Assembly: GCA_945891385.1 (NCBI GenBank)
Contig: CAMDDJ010000001.1
Coordinates: forward strand, 154,921 to 218,920
Source of the DNA: Candidatus Kuenenia stuttgartensis
GTDB lineage: Bacteria; Planctomycetota; Planctomycetia; Pirellulales; UBA1268
Length of the DNA: 64,000 bases
Direction: 5' to 3'
Below, piece after piece: positions 19,746 to 51,418 of this stretch. Position 1 is the first letter of the stretch. Each line of letters starts with the position of its first letter. The notes under the pieces are model-generated. The model made no database searches, was not told where the DNA came from, and saw only the letters and a list, made by a program, of their open reading frames with translations. The translations under genes and the position numbers were made by a program.

Positions 19746-21119
19746 TCAGCGGCGGCTCCACGACGGCAGACTCGGCAACCGCATGGCCCGGACGGTGGTC
19801 GTGCCTGAACCGCTCACATCCGAATCCGCGTTCCCAACGGAGAGCGTCTGCTCGCCGGCCGTTTCAAACGTCACGCGGAGCAGAGCGATGCCGTTGACGA
19901 AATCGACAGTACTCGGGAGCGTTGCCTCGGCGTCGCTGCTCGACACGGCGAGGCTGCCCGTGAAGCCTCGGACCATGCGGCCATCGGCGTCCACGGCCAC
20001 GAGTTGCGCGAGCATCGGCAGGCCGGCAATCACCTGCCGGGGCAGCCAGACATCGATGGCGGCGGCAGTCGGAGCCGCCTTCACGGAGGTCGTCGTGGTC
20101 GCCTCGATGTCGCCGGTCGTCACGGTCAGTTGCTGCTCGCCAAGCGTGGCGAATGCCACTTCGAAGTAGGCTCGACCGCGGCGGAATTGGACCGTCTCGG
20201 GCAGCCTGGCTTCCGGATCGCTCGAGGCGACCGTGGCGGATCCGCTGAACTCTCGGATCGCCTCCCCGTCGGCGTCAACGGCGACGGCCGCGACTCGCGT
20301 GATTTGACCGGCCACCACTTCGGGCCGCAGTTCGATCCGGACGTCGGCGACGGCCGGTTGGGCGACGACGGTTGTCGCCGCTACGGCCGTAAGTTCACCA
20401 GCCGTGGCCGTCAGCGTCTGTTCGCCGGCGGTACCGAAGGTGACCATGGCCACGGCTCGGCCGCGTTCGAAGGTGACGGTCTCGGGGAGCGTCGCGGCCT
20501 CATCGCTGCTGGTGAAAGACACATCGCCGCTGAAATTCGGCACACTGCGACCGTTGGCATCAAGGGCCATCAGCGTCACCTTGACCGGTGCATCGACTCG
20601 GGTCGATTCGGGCATGCGGATCACAAGTTGTGTCGCCACGATCGGCTCACCGACCCGGGTCGTGTCGGAGCCGGTGATCGGCGTCTCACCACCGCTGCTC
20701 ACGCTGAGGGTCTGCTCGCCGGCGGTCTTGAAGGTGACGCTGACGAAGGCCCGCCCCCGCGCGAACGTGACCGATTCGGGCAGCACCGCAGCCTCGTCGG
20801 AACTCGACAGCGACACCTCTCCGCTGAACGACGCGGGACGATTGTCGGCCCCGACCGCCATGATCAACGCCCGTACCGGCAGCCCGTTTGGCACAGCCGA
20901 CGGGAGCACGACCGAGAATCCGGTCGCTTCGACCTCGGTCGCCACGTCGCCGGCATCGAACCCCGGCAGGCGACCACCGGTCAGGCGGCTGAGGCCGTCA
21001 TTGACCAGGCCGACGAGGTCGATCGGCATACCGCTGAGCACCGTCCGAGTCTCGAGGCCCTCGATACCGAGCCGATGGGATGGGGAATTCCTGCGAGCCG
21101 AGCGTCGATTGGATGCCAT
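19746..21119 (-). CDS. LEPR-XLL-type surface protein with four Ig-like repeats
   Basis: 457 residues. The N-terminus is basic and serine-rich and contains LGIEGLETRTVLSG, a variant of the LEPR-XLL motif typical of large exported planctomycete proteins. After a spacer there are four tandem repeats of roughly 90–100 residues. Each has the scheme A-V-D-A-D-G-R, then FSG or FTG, SSSDxEATLPxxVxFxxG, and VTFxTAGEQTLxV, consistent with bacterial Ig-like or cadherin-like beta-sandwiches. The ATG at 21119 has GAGG 9 bases upstream. It follows the large surface gene at 21226–25620 by about 106 bases. Likely an adhesin or cell-surface spacer protein; no enzyme motif is visible. Confidence 0.85.
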   Translation of the reverse strand: MASNRRSARRNSPSHRLGIEGLETRTVLSGMPIDLVGLVNDGLSRLTGGRLPGFDAGDVATEVEATGFSVVLPSAVPNGLPVRALIMAVGADNRPASFSGEVSLSSSDEAAVLPESVTFARGRAFVSVTFKTAGEQTLSVSSGGETPITGSDTTRVGEPIVATQLVIRMPESTRVDAPVKVTLMALDANGRSVPNFSGDVSFTSSDEAATLPETVTFERGRAVAMVTFGTAGEQTLTATAGELTAVAATTVVAQPAVADVRIELRPEVVAGQITRVAAVAVDADGEAIREFSGSATVASSDPEARLPETVQFRRGRAYFEVAFATLGEQQLTVTTGDIEATTTTSVKAAPTAAAIDVWLPRQVIAGLPMLAQLVAVDADGRMVRGFTGSLAVSSSDAEATLPSTVDFVNGIALLRVTFETAGEQTLSVGNADSDVSGSGTTTVRAMRLPSLPSWSRR

Positions 21120-21225: not shown

Positions 21226-24200
21226 TCATTCGGCTGGGATTTGGGCCCGCCAGGGGCTCTCCTCGAGCCCGATCCGCTCCAGCGGAATCCGCCGGAAGCC
21301 GATCTCCCAGGCCGGGGAGTCGTCAGCCAGCCGGTAGTCCCCGGCGGCGGCGTCGACGAACCGGGGGTCGGCATCGACCAGGTTGTGCTCGAAGGTGACG
21401 CTCGCCCCGGCCGCCGGCTCGATGGTCGCCCAGGTGCCACCTACGCTCACGTTGCGGCGGACGACGATGTTGTGGGGCATCTCCGGAGTCTCCTTCAGCA
21501 GCCGGGCGATCTCCGGGTAGCGATTGGTCCATGTGGGGCTCTGCCAGGGCATCTCGTCGAGCTTCTGACGCATGTATCCGCCGGGAGCCACCGTAGGCGC
21601 GAACCAGCCGATTCCGCGGGCGTCCACCTCGACGGCCGGCTCACCGTTGATGAACAGGTTGTTCTCGACGAGGTTGTCCCGGCCGCCACCGATGAAGGCC
21701 GACCGGCCGGCGTTGCGGAAGAAGTTGCCGACGATCGTGATGCCGCTGGCGCAATCGTCGAGGTAGACCCCCATCGCCCCGAGCCGACCAGGGGCCACGA
21801 TGTCCTCGAACCGGTTGTGGCGGATCACCGTGCCCCGCATCGACCAGTCGCGGCCCATGTAGAAGGCTCCCACGTCACCCGTCTCCTGGCAGACGTCGCG
21901 GATGTGGTTGAATTCGATCTCGTGGTCGTTGCCCCCGAGCAGGATGCCGTTGTGCGGCGCGTCGTGGATCAGGTTGTGGGCGACCCGGTTGCCGACGCCC
22001 TGGATCTCGACGGCCGGCCGGTAGGTCCGCTGGAGCCGCGCGTAATGATGGATGTGGTTGTTCTCGGCCCGGTGGCCGGCGGGCACGAGCCGCGGACGGT
22101 CGCCACCGACCAGCCGCACGCCGCCGGCCCCGAGATCGTGCAGGTCGCTGCCGAGCACGGCATGCCCGCTGCCTCCCTGCACGTCCACGCCCCAGCCGCC
22201 GGCGTTCCGCAGCCGGCAGCCGCCGATCGTCACCCCCGCGCCGCCGGTGATCGTCACGAGCGTGCCCCGGCTGCCTTCGAGCACGAAGCCGCGGAAGGTC
22301 ACCTGCGAGACACCGTCGCAGACCAGGACATGGTCGAGAAGCGTCACGGTCGCCTCGCCGGTGAACCCTTCCGGCGGCCAGAGATAGAGGATGCCTTGTT
22401 CCCGATCGACGCACCATTCGCCGGGGCGGTCGAGTTCGCAGAGCATGTTGAAGCCGTAGAACCGCTGGCCGCTCCGGTAGGTCGTGTGCGGCTCCTCGAG
22501 TTCGATCGAGCGCGCGGCCGGATCGACCGCCTTGATCCGCTGCCGGGAATCGGACCAGTCCCAGAAGAAGTAGCCGAACAGCCAGCCGTCGGGCTCATGC
22601 TGCCAGGCCGGCAGCCGGTCGATGTCGGCGGTGAACTTCCCGACGGAGTTGCCCGGCAGTCCGCCGTCGGTCATCGGCCGGTCGCCGAGCAGGTCGCCGA
22701 TTGTGGCAAAGCCGTCGTTCGGCCAGCGGGCGATCGGCAGGCAGGCGGCGTTGACGAACATCTCGAGACGCTGGTCGCTGCCGGCGAAGGTGCCCGCGTC
22801 GGCGACACCGGCTGCCTTGAGGTCGGCCGCGAGGACGTGGGGCCGGGCCGCTTCGGGAATCCGGGCGACGACCGCAGCTTCGCGGACGGGCTTGAAGCCC
22901 GCGAGCGTGCGACCGCCCGAGAGCACCACTCGTTCGCCCGGCGCGGCCTCCCAGATGACGCGGGTGCGGCTCGTGCCGCTGTCGGCGGCGGCCAGCGCGA
23001 GCGACTCCGTGAGTTGATGCGTGCCCCCGTGGATTACGACCCGAATGTCGGTGGGCGGCGACTCGGAGGCGAGCATCGTCCTCACGCGATCACGGGCGGC
23101 GGCGAGCGTGGCGAGCGGGCCGCGGGCGGTGCCGGCTTCGCGGGAGGCCGCGGTGCCGGTCCAGTCATCGTTTCCTTCGAGGGCGACGTGGACCGCGACC
23201 GATTCCGCCGCGGCCGCGGTCATGGTCATCGTCGAGAGGCTCGCGATCACGAGCAGGCGAAAAGCACATGCCTGACGCTGTCGCCACCACCAGACCAGGG
23301 CGAGGGCCGCCGCCGCTGGCCAGCCATGCGTGGGTTCGGGCACCGCCGCTGCGACGGCCGCGCTGGTCGGAAGGTAGGGGCCGGTGCCATACGTGCCCGC
23401 TGATTGCACGGATATCAGGTCGAGCACGTTGCACACGCCGTCGTAGTTGAAATCGCCCTCGCTCCAGAAGGCGGCCTGCGGTGTGCCGTATCGACCGCCG
23501 GAGACGATGCCCACCAGGTCGAAGGCATCGACCTGGCCGCTGAGGTTGGTGTCGCCGGCGGAGGCGAAGGCGACGGTCAGCGACCCATCGGACGGGGTGA
23601 GATAGCCGAGGGTGCGGGTGCCCGCCGAAGCCGCCGCCACCGAGGACGTGATGCCGGAGGTGCCGAGCCACGAGCCGTCGGCCCGGCCCGCGACCAGGGC
23701 CTGGACCATCGCGGCCGGTGACATCCCTCCGGCAGCCACGGCCATCCGGCCACTGCCCAGATCGACGAGGCCGCCGCCGGCGCCGAGGGCGATCGAGAGC
23801 GACGCGGCGTCGACGGTGACCGAGCGTTCCACGGGGAGGAGCAACCGGCCGTCGGCCGCTACCTCGATCCCGCCCCCGAGTTCTCCGCCGGGGGCGATCG
23901 CGAGCGTGCCTGCGGTGACCCGCGTGCCGCCGGTATGGCGGGCCCGGCCCGCGAGCACCGTCCGGCTCGAGCCGATGCCCGTCACCGTCAGCTCGCCGGG
24001 GCCGATCAGGTCGCCGGCGAGCGTGGCCGTGACGGAAAACAGTCCACCGGCCCGAATCGTTGCATCGTCGGCGATCGCGAGCGTGCCGCCCAGTGTGCCG
24101 GTGTTCGAAAACCGAATCGCCCCGCCGAGTCCGGAGCTGCCCGAGCCCGCGATGGCGAGATCGTTGGCAAACACCCCTTGGTCGGCCTTCAGGTCGAGCC

Positions 24201-25620
24201 CGCTGCCCGGAGCCACTTCCACCGCAGCCGTGCCCAGCGCCGCGGTGCTTCCGAATTCGACCGTGAGATTGCCGGCGAGGCGGGCGGTGCCTGTGAGCGT
24301 CGAGTCACCGCCAATCGGTCGCAGCACGATCAGGGAGGCGGCCGAGCCTCCACCGCCGACGAGTTCCGGCGCGTTGCCGGCCAGCCGGGCGGTGACCAGC
24401 AGCGTCGCCCCGTCGGCGACGGTGAGCGACGGCGCGCCGACGAGGCTGAGATCGGATGCGGTCGCGGTCGCTCCCAGTCGGTACCCGGTCGTGCGGACGT
24501 CGATCGATTCCACGGTGACCCCATCGGCCGGCACCACCGTGCCCGCGGGGCCGGCGAAGATCGCCGTCGTGCCGAGGGCAGGTTCCGAGTTCCAGGCCAC
24601 GTCGGCTCCGTAGATCGCTCCGTCCCGCCAGGTAACGGCGGTGGGGGTCCAGGTGCCGGAGCCTCCGCGGACGCCATCGCCCGCCCACCAGAGCTCGCCC
24701 GGCGTGTCGATCGGAGTCTGATAGAAGACGCCCAGATTGTTTCCCACCGCCCGCGGGCTGCCGTCGGAGGGCGTGTTGAGCACCTGGGTCTTGTTCACCC
24801 CGGATGCCGCAGAATTCCACCAGGCCATCGTCGTGGAGCCGCCCCCGTCCATATAGATGCCATCCCAGGCCCCGAAGGAGGCGAGCCATACGCCCACCTC
24901 GCGGTTCGTCGCGCCGACCGACGCGGCCGAGCGGCCGTCGATCGTCATCAGGTAGACGTAGCGGGTGTCCTGCGAGACACCGATCCCCGTGCGGGGCTGC
25001 CGATCGGTGCCGGAGAGCCGAGGGCTGCCATCGGCCAGGCACTGATAGATGCCGGAGACGGCGGTTCGGGAGTCACCCGGCGTCGTGACGTCGATCGTGT
25101 CGAGGATCGACGGCACGCCAGCGGACGTGACCGAGAACGACGCCCGGCCGACTCCATCGGCGACTCCCGGCGAGACGAGCACGCCATCCGACACGGCGAA
25201 GCCCGTGAGGTCGGCAGCGGAGCCGTTGGCCACGTAGAGGTTGGCGTTCACGGCTGCGACCAGCGGATGCGACGAGTTTCGTGAGTTCGTGATGAAGTTC
25301 GGCGTCGTCTCGAGAAGCGTCTCCCGAACGCCCGACTGCCAGGCCGATGCCCGCGGTGTGGCGTAGAAGGAGAGCCCGGGGGCAAGCGTGTCGATCCGCA
25401 GGCAGTTCACCTGGAGCGGGTCGGGGGCAGTACGCGTGAGGTCGGCGTGGAGAATGCCGGGGGAGAGCACCGCGGCCGCAGTCCAGTCGAACGGGGACTG
25501 GCCCCGGGCGGCGGGGCACGTGGGGCCGGCGATGGAACCGGCGAGCAGGCCACAGAGCAGACCGGTGACAAGCCAGGCGGATCCATGGCCAAACGGCAAG
25601 GCGACGGTGGAGAGACTCAT
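21226..25620 (-). CDS. Fusion: phosphodiester glycosidase–PATR–dockerin–PEP-CTERM followed in frame by a second exported beta-helix protein
   Basis: 1464 residues without a stop. Residues 1–42 are a signal peptide. Residues 45–320 are a phosphodiester glycosidase (NAGPA-type) domain with MDGGGSTTM near 257. Residues 330–680 hold glycine-rich autotransporter-like repeats, and 688–745 hold two dockerin-like repeats (GDTNLSGQVDAFDLVGI, GDFNYDGVCNVLDLI). At 760 comes a PEP-CTERM signal: VPEP, a hydrophobic run to WWW779, then RQRQ. Instead of stopping, the frame continues into FRLLVIASLSTMTMTAAAA (787–805), a signal-peptide-like segment. From 806 it runs into a complete right-handed parallel beta-helix domain (VHVALEGNDDWTG, ENNHIHHY, EFNHIRDV, ENNLFINGEP). 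The second half alone resembles an ordinary secreted polysaccharide-active protein. The only in-frame starts at the junction are a GTG inside the hydrophobic core and ATGs at 798 and 800, none with a ribosome-binding site. Confidence 0.85.
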   Translation of the reverse strand: MSLSTVALPFGHGSAWLVTGLLCGLLAGSIAGPTCPAARGQSPFDWTAAAVLSPGILHADLTRTAPDPLQVNCLRIDTLAPGLSFYATPRASAWQSGVRETLLETTPNFITNSRNSSHPLVAAVNANLYVANGSAADLTGFAVSDGVLVSPGVADGVGRASFSVTSAGVPSILDTIDVTTPGDSRTAVSGIYQCLADGSPRLSGTDRQPRTGIGVSQDTRYVYLMTIDGRSAASVGATNREVGVWLASFGAWDGIYMDGGGSTTMAWWNSAASGVNKTQVLNTPSDGSPRAVGNNLGVFYQTPIDTPGELWWAGDGVRGGSGTWTPTAVTWRDGAIYGADVAWNSEPALGTTAIFAGPAGTVVPADGVTVESIDVRTTGYRLGATATASDLSLVGAPSLTVADGATLLVTARLAGNAPELVGGGGSAASLIVLRPIGGDSTLTGTARLAGNLTVEFGSTAALGTAAVEVAPGSGLDLKADQGVFANDLAIAGSGSSGLGGAIRFSNTGTLGGTLAIADDATIRAGGLFSVTATLAGDLIGPGELTVTGIGSSRTVLAGRARHTGGTRVTAGTLAIAPGGELGGGIEVAADGRLLLPVERSVTVDAASLSIALGAGGGLVDLGSGRMAVAAGGMSPAAMVQALVAGRADGSWLGTSGITSSVAAASAGTRTLGYLTPSDGSLTVAFASAGDTNLSGQVDAFDLVGIVSGGRYGTPQAAFWSEGDFNYDGVCNVLDLISVQSAGTYGTGPYLPTSAAVAAAVPEPTHGWPAAAALALVWWWRQRQACAFRLLVIASLSTMTMTAAAAESVAVHVALEGNDDWTGTAASREAGTARGPLATLAAARDRVRTMLASESPPTDIRVVIHGGTHQLTESLALAAADSGTSRTRVIWEAAPGERVVLSGGRTLAGFKPVREAAVVARIPEAARPHVLAADLKAAGVADAGTFAGSDQRLEMFVNAACLPIARWPNDGFATIGDLLGDRPMTDGGLPGNSVGKFTADIDRLPAWQHEPDGWLFGYFFWDWSDSRQRIKAVDPAARSIELEEPHTTYRSGQRFYGFNMLCELDRPGEWCVDREQGILYLWPPEGFTGEATVTLLDHVLVCDGVSQVTFRGFVLEGSRGTLVTITGGAGVTIGGCRLRNAGGWGVDVQGGSGHAVLGSDLHDLGAGGVRLVGGDRPRLVPAGHRAENNHIHHYARLQRTYRPAVEIQGVGNRVAHNLIHDAPHNGILLGGNDHEIEFNHIRDVCQETGDVGAFYMGRDWSMRGTVIRHNRFEDIVAPGRLGAMGVYLDDCASGITIVGNFFRNAGRSAFIGGGRDNLVENNLFINGEPAVEVDARGIGWFAPTVAPGGYMRQKLDEMPWQSPTWTNRYPEIARLLKETPEMPHNIVVRRNVSVGGTWATIEPAAGASVTFEHNLVDADPRFVDAAAGDYRLADDSPAWEIGFRRIPLERIGLEESPWRAQIPAE

Positions 25621-25673: not shown

Positions 25674-28139
25674 TCACTCCGCGGTCCGCCTGCGGCGAAT
25701 CAGGGTTCGGGCTCCCAGGCCGGCGAGGGCCAAGCCCAGGAGGGCCGTCGGCTCCGGCACGGCCGCGAGGCTCCCGGTGGTGGTGGTGGGAGCTGCCGGG
25801 AAATAATTTCCTTGATTGTACGCACCGCCACCGTTGATCGCGACGAGGTCGAACACGTTGGTGACCCCGTCGTAGTTCATGTCGCCGTCGTTCCAATCGG
25901 CAGCCACTCCGCTGCCATACGTGCCCGAGGAGTTGATCCCCACCAGGTCGAAGACGTTGACCGTCCCGCTCAGATCGATGTCGCCGGGCGCCGCGAACGA
26001 CACGCGTGCCGAGCCATCGCCCGCCACCACGTAGCCCACGGCTCGTCCCCCGCCTGCCGCGGCGGCCGTGCTCGACATGATGCCGGTGCTGCCGTTCCAG
26101 CCGCCGTTGTTGCGGCCGGCGATGATGTCGGCCCGGAGGTCGGCCGCCGAAATCCCGCCGGCGGCGATGGACACTTGGCCGGCTCCGAGATCGAGCCGGC
26201 CACCGCCGGCGGTGTGTGCCACCGTCAGGCTGCCGATCGCCACCGCCACGCGGGCATCGTCGGCCAGGGCGAACTGGCCTCCGCCATCGACCGTGATGGC
26301 CGGCGCTCCCGAGACCGTGCCGGCGTTGATCGCCAGCGCTGCGACCCCGCTCGTCGCGTTGACGGCGAGCGACGTCGCGGAGAGCGTGCCGCCATCGACG
26401 ATCACCGAGGGGGATCGCAGGGAGATGCCCGAGCCAACCGCCAGCGTGCCGCTGGAGTCGACGGTGACGGCGGTCGCAGCCACCGCCTCGGCATTCGTCA
26501 CCTCCAGCGTGCCGGCCGAGATCGTGGTCGGCCCGGCATACGCATTCGCCGCGTCGAACACGACCGTGCCCGCGCCGGTTTTGGTGACCGATGTGGCCGA
26601 GGAAATCGTGGGATAGCCCGCCTGGGCCTGGGTGACCGATCCGCTTGCCACGTTGATCACGATGTCGGTGGGGACGCCACCGGCCGGCGTGAACACGAGA
26701 TTCAGGCTGGTGCCTGTCTGGGTGACCGAGAAGCTGCCGCCTTGGATGTCATTGGAGAAGCCGGCCGACGCGACCGAGGGGAAGGTGCTGATCTGAAAGG
26801 CATCGGCCGAGAAGCCAGTGATTCCGCCGGCGGCCCGGGCGAATTCCCAGGTGTAGGCCTCAGCGGGATTGAAGCCGGTCGCCAGCCCGGGCGTGTCGGG
26901 CGAAGTTGCGGACAGCGTTTCGAGGTCGAGCAGCACGGGCGCGAATTGGTCGGCCGAGATGCTCAGGCTGCCGCCGATGTCGAGCACGCCCCAGCCACCG
27001 GCTGCCGACGCGTCGGCGAGCTTGAAGACCTGGCCGGAGTAGGGCCCCCAGGCGACGTCACCCGTGACGGTGAACTCGCCAGGGCTCGGTGCGAGCACAC
27101 CCGACGGCCCCACGGTCAGCGATCCCGCAATTGTGCCCAGGCCGCCGATCGTCTGGCTCGGCGCGACCGTGAGCCCGCCCGTCACGCCCGTCACGTCGAG
27201 CGTGCCGGCCGGATTCACCGTCACCCTAGTCGAGGTGTCGATCGAGCCGAACACCATCTCGCCCTGGCGATCGACGGTGCGAATAGCGAGCGTGCCGGCG
27301 TCGATCACCGTCGGGCCGGTGTATTCATTGGGCACGTTGAAGGTGACCGTCGCATTGGGCACGTTCACCTGCACACCCAGCGGCCGAGAGCCGGTGTTGT
27401 TGGTGCTGCCATCCTGGATGTTGACGTTGAAGACCATCCCGCCGGTGCCGCTGCCCTCGAGCGGGATCAGCTTGATCGTGGCCCCGGGCTGGTCGGCGTA
27501 GCCGGCGGTCAGACCCTGGCCGTAGATGCTCGCCTGGCTGCCGATGTTGGCAAGCGAGCCGAAGGTCAAGGGCAGCGGCGAGTCGTTGCGGATGAAGGTG
27601 TCGGGCCGAACGCCTATCCGGAGGATGCCGGTCGAGGCGTTGATCGCGTCGCCCATCTGGACCGGACCCGAGTCGGCCTCCACGATCAGGCCATTGACGA
27701 TGTCGAGCCGGCGGGAACTCGTGAGCGTCGATTCGGCTGACCAGCCGAGGAGCCGCTTGACGTTCGATTCCCGGAAGCTCAGCGAATTGACGATTCGGTA
27801 GCCGAGGTCGCCGTACCCGGGTCCTCCGATCCAGACGCCGTCGCCGTTGGCCCGGTTGTCGAAGATCACGTCGTCGAACTCGCCGGGGAAGTCGGGGGTG
27901 CTCGTCCAGTTGTTGGGCGCGCCGGGCGTGCCGTCGCCCGGGCCGACCGTCTGGCCCCAGCCCAATTTTTGAACAACGCTGTTATCCCAGTAGATCGCGA
28001 CGGCCTGTGCCGGCGATCCCACCGCCATCGCCAGCCAGGTCCCGCTCGCCACGACAAGCATCCCGCGAACTCGCAGGCGTTGCTGCGAAGCGGGCGCGAC
28101 GGACGAGCGAGGAAAGGCGTGGCTGAGGCAAGATTTCAT
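25674..28139 (-). CDS. PEP-CTERM surface protein with autotransporter-like and dockerin-like repeats
   Basis: 821 residues from the ATG at 28139, which has GGAG at 8 bases; an upstream in-frame ATG at 28226 is less likely. After a long basic n-region comes a signal-peptide core (GMLVVASGTWLAMAVGSPAQA). The body is glycine-, threonine- and valine-rich beta-helix sequence with PATR-like motifs (YTGPTVIDAGTLAI, YAGPTTISAGTLEV). Two dockerin-like calcium loops follow ([38 protein letters not shown]). It ends correctly with a PEP-CTERM signal: VPEPTALLGLALAGLGA plus RRRR and stop. Exosortase would cleave and anchor it. Its last 260 residues before the sorting signal are closely similar to part of the protein at 48047–51418. 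The next gene on the strand starts 53 bases downstream. Confidence 0.9.
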   Translation of the reverse strand: MKSCLSHAFPRSSVAPASQQRLRVRGMLVVASGTWLAMAVGSPAQAVAIYWDNSVVQKLGWGQTVGPGDGTPGAPNNWTSTPDFPGEFDDVIFDNRANGDGVWIGGPGYGDLGYRIVNSLSFRESNVKRLLGWSAESTLTSSRRLDIVNGLIVEADSGPVQMGDAINASTGILRIGVRPDTFIRNDSPLPLTFGSLANIGSQASIYGQGLTAGYADQPGATIKLIPLEGSGTGGMVFNVNIQDGSTNNTGSRPLGVQVNVPNATVTFNVPNEYTGPTVIDAGTLAIRTVDRQGEMVFGSIDTSTRVTVNPAGTLDVTGVTGGLTVAPSQTIGGLGTIAGSLTVGPSGVLAPSPGEFTVTGDVAWGPYSGQVFKLADASAAGGWGVLDIGGSLSISADQFAPVLLDLETLSATSPDTPGLATGFNPAEAYTWEFARAAGGITGFSADAFQISTFPSVASAGFSNDIQGGSFSVTQTGTSLNLVFTPAGGVPTDIVINVASGSVTQAQAGYPTISSATSVTKTGAGTVVFDAANAYAGPTTISAGTLEVTNAEAVAATAVTVDSSGTLAVGSGISLRSPSVIVDGGTLSATSLAVNATSGVAALAINAGTVSGAPAITVDGGGQFALADDARVAVAIGSLTVAHTAGGGRLDLGAGQVSIAAGGISAADLRADIIAGRNNGGWNGSTGIMSSTAAAAGGGRAVGYVVAGDGSARVSFAAPGDIDLSGTVNVFDLVGINSSGTYGSGVAADWNDGDMNYDGVTNVFDLVAINGGGAYNQGNYFPAAPTTTTGSLAAVPEPTALLGLALAGLGARTLIRRRRTAE

Positions 28140-28560
28140 CGGCGCGACTCCATGCAGGACCAGAAACTGCGGAACCAGACAGCGAAGTGGTTGGGGGCGG
28201 GCGGCGATTCCGAAACGACGGAACATCTCGTGGTGTCCTCGCCGCCGAGTTTACCCGTGATCCTGGCCACGTTACCGTTCAGTGCGTCCGGCTAGCGATC
28301 CCTGCTCCGCGTGAGATTCTCGCAAGCGCGCATGCTGACGCTGGTTTTTGTTCACCATGTCGCATCGCCGGCGTAAAGGAATTGTCCTGAGTCATAAAGA
28401 TTTGCCGGTTCGAAAAGGAACCGTGCGACCGGAACGTTGACCAACTCGGTCGGTGGGGACGATCCTACTCCCAGCGATCGAGCCCCATCGCCGCCAGGCC
28501 ACCCCCGCGTGGTCTGGTCCCGCCTGCCCGAGTCCCACCGACCCTCCTGCGAGCCCCCCG
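28140..28560. other. Divergent intergenic region, about 420 bp
   Basis: Lies between the start of the minus-strand PEP-CTERM gene and the start of the plus-strand DUF1559 gene, so it must hold both promoters. It is less GC-rich around 28330–28420 (stretches such as GGTTTTTGTTCACC and GTCATAAAGATTTG). I see no convincing gene, RNA structure or repeat in it. Confidence 0.6.
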
Positions 28561-47970: not shown

Positions 47971-48046
47971 ACTTCAGTAACGGGGCGGTTCTGGGGATCG
48001 TGTTTCATTACTCGGGGAGAAGAAGATGTACTTGGGGGAGAAAAAA

Positions 48047-51000
48047 ATGCGACGTGCCTTGTGCTCCTTGGTGACGTCTCTTGGCGTCGCTATCGGTGGC
48101 TGGTGCTCTGGCGGCGGGAGTGCCTTCGCCGTGGACCAGCTGCTCTACACGCTTGACGTCGATCCGGATGCCGGCAGCCAGAACTTTTGGGTCGGCACCG
48201 TCGGCATGGCGTTTGCCACGTGGCAGCCGGGGGCCACCGTCAGCCACCTCGGATTCTACGACAGTTTCGGCGACGGCCTCGTCAACAACCATACGGTGAA
48301 TCTCTTCCTCAGCACATCGAGCGGCGGCACCGGCGGCCCCGATTCGATCCTCGCCTCCGTGGTCGTTCCGGCGGGCACGACCGCCGAACTTCGCAATGGC
48401 TATCGGTGGGTGCCGCTCGAAACACCGTTGGCTCTCGCCGACAACACCTGGCATACCGTCTCGACCGATGTCGACGGCGTCGACCTCTGGGGCGAACTGA
48501 CCTACGCCGGAAGCGGCGTCACGCTGAACGAACCCTACTACAGTTTCAGCGGCTGGGGATCGACCTACGCACGGTACGGCAACCCGCCGGTCGGTGATGA
48601 ACCGCCATATGGCAGTTTCGGCGGAGCGGTCTACCCTGCGGTCAATCTCGGCTACTTCGTCTCGAGTCCCCCCTCCGATATCGTCATCGATGTTCCCGGC
48701 GGGGCTCAAACCCAGGCGGAAGCAGGGTATGCTGTCATCGAGTCTGCCACCTCGGTCACCAAGACCGGGGCCGGTGCACTGGTGATGGATGCCGCCAACG
48801 GCTACGCCGGGCCGACGACCGTGGCTGCGGGCACCCTTGAGGTTGCGAATCCGAATGCCTTGGCTGCCACGGCCGTGACGGTCGACACCGGGGCGACTCT
48901 TGCCATCGCTTCCGGTGTGACGATGAGGTCGCCGTCGGTGATTGTCGATGGAGGAACCATCTCGGCCGCAGCGCTCACGGTCGATGCGGCGACTGGCATC
49001 GGGTCGGTGGCCATCAATGCCGGCACCATCGCCGGATCCCCGGTACTCTCAATCGATGCCGGAGGGAGCGTGGCTCTGGCCAAAGACGCCCGTGTGACTG
49101 TGGCGGTGGGCAGTCTGACGGTCGCCGAGGGAAGCGGCGGCGGGCGGCTCGATGTGGGGGCGGGACAAATAACGGTCGCCGCCGGCGGTGTCGGTGCCGC
49201 CGATCTGCGTGCCGACATCATCGCCGGCCGAAATGGCGGCGCGTGGAACGGCGCGACGGGCATCACGTCGAGCACGGCGGCCAGCGCCACGGCCAGTTCA
49301 AGGGCGGTGGGCTACGTCGTGAATCCGGCTGGCGCCGCGACTGTCTCTTTCGCGGCGCCGGGGGATACGGACCTCAGCGGGGCTGTGAATGTCTTCGATC
49401 TCGTGTCGATCAACTCCTCGGGCAGGTACGGCACCGGCAGGGCAGCCGTCTGGAGCGATGGCGACGTCAACTACGACAACGTGACGAACGTGTTCGACCT
49501 GGTCGGAATCAACTCCGCCGGTGCGTACGGCCAGGGCAACTACTTCGCCGCCGCGCCGACGAGCCTCGGCTCGCCCACTGCTGTCCCGGAACCCGCCGTC
49601 GCTGTGCCACTCATCCTGGGCCTGGCCTCAGTCGGCCGGCGTGTCTGGAGGCAGACGTGGCCTCGCCGACGGGGGGCCGGGGGCTGGTCGCCAGCCCGGC
49701 CTCCAATTCTGAGCGGTGCACTGCTCATGGCCCTGACGATCGGCGGATCGGCCACGCGGCCTGCCGCGGCCCTGACCTTCGAGGAGATGCTTTACACACT
49801 TAATTACGATCCGAGCGCGGGCCCTCAGAACACCTGGACCGGCACCGTCGGCATGGCCTTCGCGACGTGGCAATCTGGCGCTACGGTCAGTCATGTCGGG
49901 TATTACGACCGCGACGGTGACGGACTCGCCAACAGCCACATCATCAATTTGTTTCGGAGCACGTCCAGCGGAGGGAGCGGCGGTCCGGATTCGATCCTCG
50001 CCTCCGCCACGGTGCCGGCGGGAACGACCGCCGAACTGGTAGATGGTTTTCGCTGGGTGGCGTTGAGTTCCCCGCTGAGTCTCCCAGCAAATACCTGGTA
50101 TACGCTGGCCGTCGATGTGGATGGAGTCGATCTCTTCGGTGATCTGATGAGTGTCGGGCCCAACGTGACCATGGCCGAGCCGTATTACAGCAACGGCGGC
50201 TGGGGCTCGCCGTATGCCCGCTATGGCAGCGATCCTGTTTCCAACGAGCCCCCTTCGGGCAGCTTCGCCACCTCGATCTATCCGGTCGTGAACCTGGCCT
50301 ACGTGCCCGAGCCGGCGACCCTGGTCCTGACCGCGTGCGGGCTGGTCGGCACGATTGGATTGGGCTGGCACCGGAAGCGGCGGAGGTCGTCGGCGGGTTA
50401 TCCGGGCGGTCGACATCGGTCAGCGACGGGGGCAGATGGTCGACGCGGCTTTACCTTGGTGGAACTCCTGGTGGTGATCGCGATCATCGCCACGCTGATC
50501 GGACTCCTCCTGCCGGCCGTGCAGTCAGCCCGGGAGTCGGCCCGACGGACCGGCTGCTCCAACAATCTGCGGCAGTTGGGGCTGGCGATGCATGGTTATC
50601 ACAGCCAACGCAACCGCTTTCCGGCCGGAGATTTCTGGATGCCATTGCGAACGGCCACCGGGGGATGGATTCACTGGAGTCACTGGAACTGGACCATCAA
50701 ACTGCTGCCGACGCTCGAGGATCAGGCCCTGTTTGCCGCGGCCGACCTGACGCAGCCGGCCATGCGAGGCAGTGTTTTTCAGGATGTGTTGTTCCGCACC
50801 CCGGCGGTCTTCTTGTGCCCGTCGAATCCCTACAACTCGACGGCGTCGCAGTATTTCAACGAGAGCACGGGGACCCGCCGGATCGGTGAGTGCGATTATG
50901 CCTCCAACGCCGGCGACCATGCCTGCGGAGGGGATTTTGGGGAAGGGGCCGACCCTGCGCTCGGCGACCCCCCCACGTATCCCGCGTGTGCAAACACGTT

Positions 51001-51418
51001 TCCACAGAACAAGTACCCCGAGGGCAAAGCGGCGATTCGCGGTGTCATCGGCCGTTTTGGCTGGGCAGCCTCGTTTCGGCAGATTACCGATGGCACATCG
51101 AAGACCTTCGCGCTCGGCGAGTGCATCGGGCAGTTCAGCATCAATCAGAATTTTGGAACTCAGAGTTGGGCTCTCACGTCGCATCCGATGAACTGGCAGA
51201 ACGATCAGTTCGTCGGCAAGGAGAACAATTGGCCTTCCGAATCGAACCCCCAATGGTCGCTTGGCCTCGTGTTTCGCAGCTTGCATGCCGGAGGCGGCGC
51301 GCAATTCGCCCTCTGCGACGCGTCCGTGCGATTTCTGAGCGAGAACATCAATCACGCCGTGTATATGGCTCTTTCTTCCCGTGCAGCCGGAGAGGCAGCA
51401 AGTGTTTCGCTCGAGTGA
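48047..51418 (+). CDS. Triple fusion: PEP-CTERM protein, paralogous PEP-CTERM protein, DUF1559 pseudopilin
   Basis: 1123 residues, one open frame. Unit A: signal peptide 1–28; a DUF4082-like sandwich 29–205 ([20 protein letters not shown]); PATR repeats to 430; two dockerin-like repeats ([38 protein letters not shown]); VPEP at 512, hydrophobic segment, then [12 protein letters not shown]. Unit B: a second signal-peptide core [16 protein letters not shown] (about 555–575); a paralogous sandwich 576–745 ([20 protein letters not shown]); VPEPATLVL at 753, hydrophobic segment, RKRRR. Unit C: a prepilin site G801|[16 protein letters not shown] and a whole DUF1559 domain ([49 protein letters not shown]). 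In-frame ATGs at 48026 and 48047 both have GGGAG six bases upstream. Between B and C there is no in-frame ATG or GTG after the sorting signal. Likely processed by exosortase, signal peptidase and prepilin peptidase. Confidence 0.88.

Follow-up and report, generated by a model that had tools for sequence, protein, structure and literature searches.

The gene running from 25620 to 21226 on the minus strand of the window (the whole stretch of 64,000 nucleotides that was analysed) probably encodes a secretory polyprotein, in which an internal PEP-CTERM signal would act as a stop-transfer segment, the signal peptide that follows it would restart export, and the parts would then be cut apart. The frame is read without a stop over 1464 aa and contains two complete secreted modules, the second of which begins with a signal-peptide-like segment and has no usable standard start codon. 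The features are listed below; signal peptides and helices were called from hydropathy and motif.

21226..25620, minus strand: whole fusion gene, 1464 aa; ATG at 25620, TGA at 21228-21226; a single gene by codon-based gene calling
25494..25620, minus strand: module 1 signal peptide, approximately residues 1-42, with a hydrophobic core at 13-31 by hydropathy
24724..25263, minus strand: phosphodiester glycosidase (NAGPA) domain, residues 120-299 (PF09992, E 2.4e-25)
23407..23559, minus strand: dockerin-like stretch, residues 688-738 (PF00404, E 0.059, below the Pfam cut-off)
23272..23343, minus strand: internal PEP-CTERM-like signal VPEP...WWWRQRQ, residues 760-783 (sequence reading and genus-motif matrix)
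23206..23271, minus strand: internal signal-peptide-like segment ACAFRLLVIASLSTMTMTAAAA, residues 784-805, with the cut predicted at A805|E806
21229..23205, minus strand: module 2, a beta-helix protein, residues 806-1464 (PF13229)
25674..28226, minus strand: upstream neighbour, an ordinary PEP-CTERM gene that stops 5 aa past its motif, 53 bases ahead of the fusion gene
48026..51418, plus strand: second gene of the same design, a single 1130-aa frame in which two DUF4082-type PEP-CTERM modules (VPEP at 49583 and 50303) precede a DUF1559 pseudopilin

The halves of the protein are unrelated, as the earlier note had proposed: Pfam places NAGPA in module 1 (PF09992, 90.1 bits against a cut-off of 25) and Beta_helix in module 2 (residues 1185-1323, E 4e-14), which rules out a tandem duplication as the origin of the gene. 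Repeats lie between the glycosidase domain and the dockerin-like stretch, and a pattern similar to the latter precedes many PEP-CTERM motifs of the genus. The solved chain nearest to module 2 by sequence is the parallel beta-helix repeat protein 9rx2_A (phmmer against PDB, E 4e-26). Module 2 scores below the GH141 threshold (PF21231, 12.4 bits against a cut-off of 27), and BT_1002 (5mqp) aligns only to its residues 23-109 (E 2.8e-4). NAGPA proteins (PF09992) and GH141-like parallel beta-helix enzymes, which have the domain content of the two modules, are known as separate proteins; here they are joined. The next gene after the fusion gene (19749-21041, minus strand) starts with GLETRTVLSG, which we take to resemble planctomycete-specific N-terminal motifs.

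The read-through at the junction was likewise borne out: V760-PEP is followed by a hydrophobic run, by WWW (777-779) and by RQRQ (780-783), and the frame then passes, with no stop, into the signal-peptide-like segment and the beta-helix protein. From the PEP-CTERM helix to the core of the second hydrophobic segment there is no ATG, GTG or TTG, the first in-frame codon of this kind being a GTG at residue 791, within the second core; therefore, barring a rare start codon, module 2 would be made only as part of the fusion. The Pfam PEP-CTERM model (PF07589) reports no motif at residues 760-783, which counts against the polyprotein reading; the motif fits by eye and reaches 36.2 bits, the 42nd percentile, in a matrix built from the genus' own terminal motifs. 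The protein has the N-terminal signal peptide of a PF07589 protein and its genome has an exosortase (PF09721 at G000:C4:90389-91135, E 1e-48), while the motif is followed by 681 residues instead of standing at the extreme C-terminus. Single-sequence structure prediction of residues 686-829 gave a pLDDT of 35, too low for use.

By established rules of membrane topology, a PEP-CTERM segment is a stop-transfer helix whose basic tail stays inside, and the inner flank of a signal peptide has to be basic. Placed back to back, the two could share one loop, and the hairpin so formed would send the chain back to export. Accordingly to this scheme, the Sec pathway would export module 1, the PEP-CTERM helix would halt transfer (out to in), a short basic loop would remain cytoplasmic, and the second hydrophobic segment would restart export (in to out). 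Exosortase would cut at PEP and signal peptidase I after A-X-A, both sites facing outward, so that two mature extracytoplasmic enzymes would be freed in a 1:1 ratio from one translation product. In the DUF1559 cases, prepilin peptidase would instead cut the cytoplasmic loop, at a site facing inward, where that enzyme works. We infer the topology and all physical events that would follow translation. Module 2 lacks an anchor, which we count against the scheme; exosortase and prepilin peptidase are both encoded in the genome, by neighbouring genes, which we count in its favour. Prepilin peptidase is encoded immediately upstream of exosortase (L190/L211, C4:90209-92662), an adjacency observed at this and 15 further loci (16 in all) of family f1 and at none in the families searched outside f1.

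In the 3.77-Mb assembly of the same genome, the PEP-CTERM model gave 76 matches, and four internal junctions were found among about 75 PEP-CTERM ends. The pattern goes beyond chance: of about 72 hits, nearly all of those read reach a stop 0-31 residues past the motif, except in three genes, namely the 48026 gene (two junctions), a sulfatase gene of contig C65 and the gene under study. Internal motifs nearly always continue in frame into a signal peptide or a prepilin site. The earlier note had seen the same junction in the 48026 gene; the in-frame fusion is indeed there, in a gene of three modules and not a simple pair. Its two DUF4082-type modules are paralogous, and its DUF1559 pseudopilin retains an intact GFTLVE site. 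The C65 gene (L212:3227-6280, minus strand) leads from a PEP-CTERM protein through a signal peptide into a sulfatase, with no start codon in between.

The exact glycosidase/beta-helix fusion was found in no relative among the genus genomes compared, which counts against the polyprotein reading. Of the 22 genomes available for the genus, three others (G002, G004 and G009) have relatives of module 2, all unfused, and the idea that this fusion is shared genus-wide was rejected; the copies in G004 and G002 are 65-67% identical. One unfused beta-helix gene (L002) comes with a start and a signal peptide of its own, and L003 is also unfused; a match of L003 reaching into the PEP-CTERM proved an alignment artefact, the upstream frame there being out-of-frame coding of another gene. 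The closest glycosidase gene (L091, 59% over that domain) stops soon after its PEP-CTERM. Since relatives carry the two genes apart, this fusion is young and lineage-specific. The earlier note had held chance loss of one stop codon to be a poor explanation; given the recurrence, this stands for the class as a whole, and it is not supported for this gene pair, for which relatives have both the stop after the motif (L091) and a separate start for the beta-helix gene (L002). Module 2 is about as far from the outgroup L004 (46% identity) as the unfused L002 and L003 are (47-49%), and thus it shows no sign of decay.

In the DNA read for the genus, which comes from draft assemblies, 208 distinct PEP-CTERM ends include 14 genuine internal junctions, a rough rate, as the loci were sampled non-randomly. 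A separate scan added a further DUF1559 fusion (L160), while the long tails of L182 and L318 (LPEPVSY) were rejected as junctions because the second hydrophobic segment is absent. Three species share a fusion of a pectate-lyase-type module and PEP-CTERM with a signal peptide and beta-helix module (L141, L178, L168); the close pair has dN/dS values of 0.007/0.041 and 0.019/0.110 for the two halves, which point to purifying selection on both, and the distant one is 65-76% identical. In family f7, the pectate-lyase and beta-helix domains are encoded by adjacent separate genes (L217, L218), and the fusion therefore most likely arose from an operon pair.

Moreover, the start of a DUF1559 pseudopilin gene often falls within the stop codon of a preceding PEP-CTERM gene, with a 4-base overlap (L099, L100, L108, L130, L151, L152, L159, L165, L176), and this arrangement is a likely forerunner of the fusions. 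Among the close same-strand downstream neighbours of PEP-CTERM genes, 44 out of 57 (77%) are secreted or prepilin-type anyway, so that a secreted partner, by itself, argues only weakly for selection. In a scan of DUF1559 and sulfatase starts for an excess of fusions at PEP-CTERM relative to other gene ends, every coding in-frame fusion had a PEP-CTERM upstream (three DUF1559 and one sulfatase), too few cases, from a PEP-CTERM-biased sample, to establish such an excess. A 1104-aa frame (L098; G013:C181, minus strand) contains three secreted modules, each with a PEP-CTERM at its end, the first and third of which look paralogous. Some records titled Candidatus Kuenenia stuttgartiensis (CAMBSN; L130, L132, L142, L145, L147, L151, L156, L158, L163, L180, L186) encode proteins that belong to this Pirellulales genus, so that their public name seems mistaken.

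In the sister family f7, the design is deeply conserved in the form of three-module chains. G042, a one-contig genome of the same order (57.5% GC), has 31 internal junctions among 166 PEP-CTERM ends, spread over 20 frames with one to three per frame, and other f7 genomes contribute 38 junctions. In one G042 chain (1383 aa), Pfam detects three PEP-CTERM motifs, and both internal junctions persist in relatives of this chain from 10 f7 genera, the one-contig genomes G059, G169 and G116 among them; the chain of G127 is 64% identical to it over the full length. Four of the genomes with such a three-module chain are one contig. A search of 294 genomes of the phylum yielded no other complete chain. 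An independent two-module PEP-CTERM/signal-peptide fusion (L370) occurs in a distant genome of the phylum, outside the order. The genome carrying the window gave no match to the f7 chain protein, whose modules are LamG-type and NDRxYxFGD-type. The f7 chains and the window gene have the design in common and not the ancestry; homology between junction families was not assumed.

The 14 junctions of the genus, the 31 of G042 and the 38 of other f7 genomes were then considered together. The loop between the hydrophobic segments has a net positive charge in 83/83 junctions, and A-X-A follows the second core in 80/83, against 63% of 247 control internal hydrophobic segments, 40% of which have a positive preceding stretch. 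Two of the 14 genus junctions are without A-X-A; two are prepilin sites by motif. No ATG, GTG or TTG lies between the segments in 33 of the 83. Internal and terminal PEP-CTERM motifs score alike, both in G042 (medians of 36.9 and 37.7 bits, p 0.69) and in the genus (p 0.38).

The polyprotein reading thus draws on the lack of an initiation codon between the segments, on a second module that is not decaying and on the recurrence of the design; on the chains with both junctions in 10 f7 genera and on internal motifs that score like terminal ones; and on the three-species pectate-lyase/beta-helix fusion, with its low dN/dS in both halves and its separate, adjacent counterparts in f7. It has to be weighed against neutral tolerance, which we consider unlikely while taking it seriously: a deletion or the loss of a stop would have joined two secreted genes, and a topologically harmless fusion would persist and be processed without any benefit. 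The lineage-specific glycosidase/beta-helix pair with its unfused relatives is consistent with such an origin, and so is the tight packing of PEP-CTERM genes with secreted genes, including the 4-base stop/start overlaps. On the other hand, chains kept in 10 genera, with a variable junction sequence yet constant charge and A-X-A, would need selection or a very strong bias, and the three-species fusion appears to be under purifying selection in both halves. Selection of the fusion, as against its mere tolerance, is more credible for the f7 chains than for the window gene. The recurrence, together with the three-protein chains, points to a genuine polyprotein strategy and not to the loss of a stop codon.

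It is improbable that the PEP-CTERM goes unused by exosortase and the product remains a single membrane-anchored two-domain enzyme, an uncleaved hairpin. That exosortase acts on internal sites is what we infer, and long-tail motifs have been proposed as possibly non-functional (Haft 2006, PMC1569441); against this, internal motifs are preserved as well as terminal ones and the signal peptidase motif is kept in 80/83 junctions. That the PEP-CTERM tail conceals a start from which module 2 is also translated is very improbable: an in-frame ATG does precede the second core in L141, L178, L168, L164 and several G042 junctions, while standard start codons are missing between the segments of the fusion gene and of the 33 junctions mentioned above, and recognisable Shine-Dalgarno motifs are rare. 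Hardly credible at all is an assembly or sequencing error in this metagenome-assembled genome; it is a 150-contig assembly, but the design recurs across several assemblies and 10 genera, one-contig genomes included, and a joining mistake would need to preserve the frame repeatedly.

If the polyprotein reading holds, the gene resembles the known PEP-CTERM/exosortase substrates (PF07589, TIGR02595) in having a signal peptide, a secreted module, a putative PEP signal with hydrophobic helix and basic cluster and, in its genome, an exosortase gene, and differs from them in that the motif is not C-terminal and precedes another signal peptide with a complete secreted module (in f7, a third module as well). 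The structural polyproteins of enveloped RNA viruses have a stop-transfer helix, a short cytoplasmic loop, an internal signal peptide and a signal peptidase cut. This is the same topological plan as the one that we propose, without homology; in the bacterial case it would serve surface enzymes and lectins, and an exosortase signal would play the part of the stop-transfer element. Among bacteria, the cytochrome b/c1 precursor encoded by Bradyrhizobium fbcH is a fusion protein that signal peptidase separates at an internal signal peptide; it concerns one respiratory subunit pair, has no C-terminal sorting signal and is not a recurrent class, and our literature search for this precedent retrieved nothing. 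The search likewise found no paper joining PEP-CTERM, exosortase and polyprotein. According to Haft 2006 (PMC1569441), the one paper retrieved that comments on long tails after PEP-CTERM, 87% of PEP-CTERM tails are shorter than 10 residues and the few long-tail cases are possibly non-functional; unlike that supposition, the long-tail motifs of the lineages studied here look intact, and each tail amounts to an entire secreted protein.

By definition, PEP-CTERM is a C-terminal signal, and annotation takes each frame to encode a single protein. With conserved internal copies, one can test whether exosortase depends on a free C-terminus, and also whether bacteria make surface proteins as polyproteins that their own sorting enzymes cut, in the manner otherwise known from enveloped viruses. 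Where sorting signals are topologically compatible, operon neighbours can fuse harmlessly. Furthermore, we see about an even chance that Planctomycetes use secretory polyproteins, that is, chains of two or three complete exosortase substrates in a single frame, in which each internal PEP-CTERM would serve as both stop-transfer and cleavage signal before an internal signal peptide or prepilin site, and from which surface proteins in a fixed ratio would be obtained from one mRNA and one export event.
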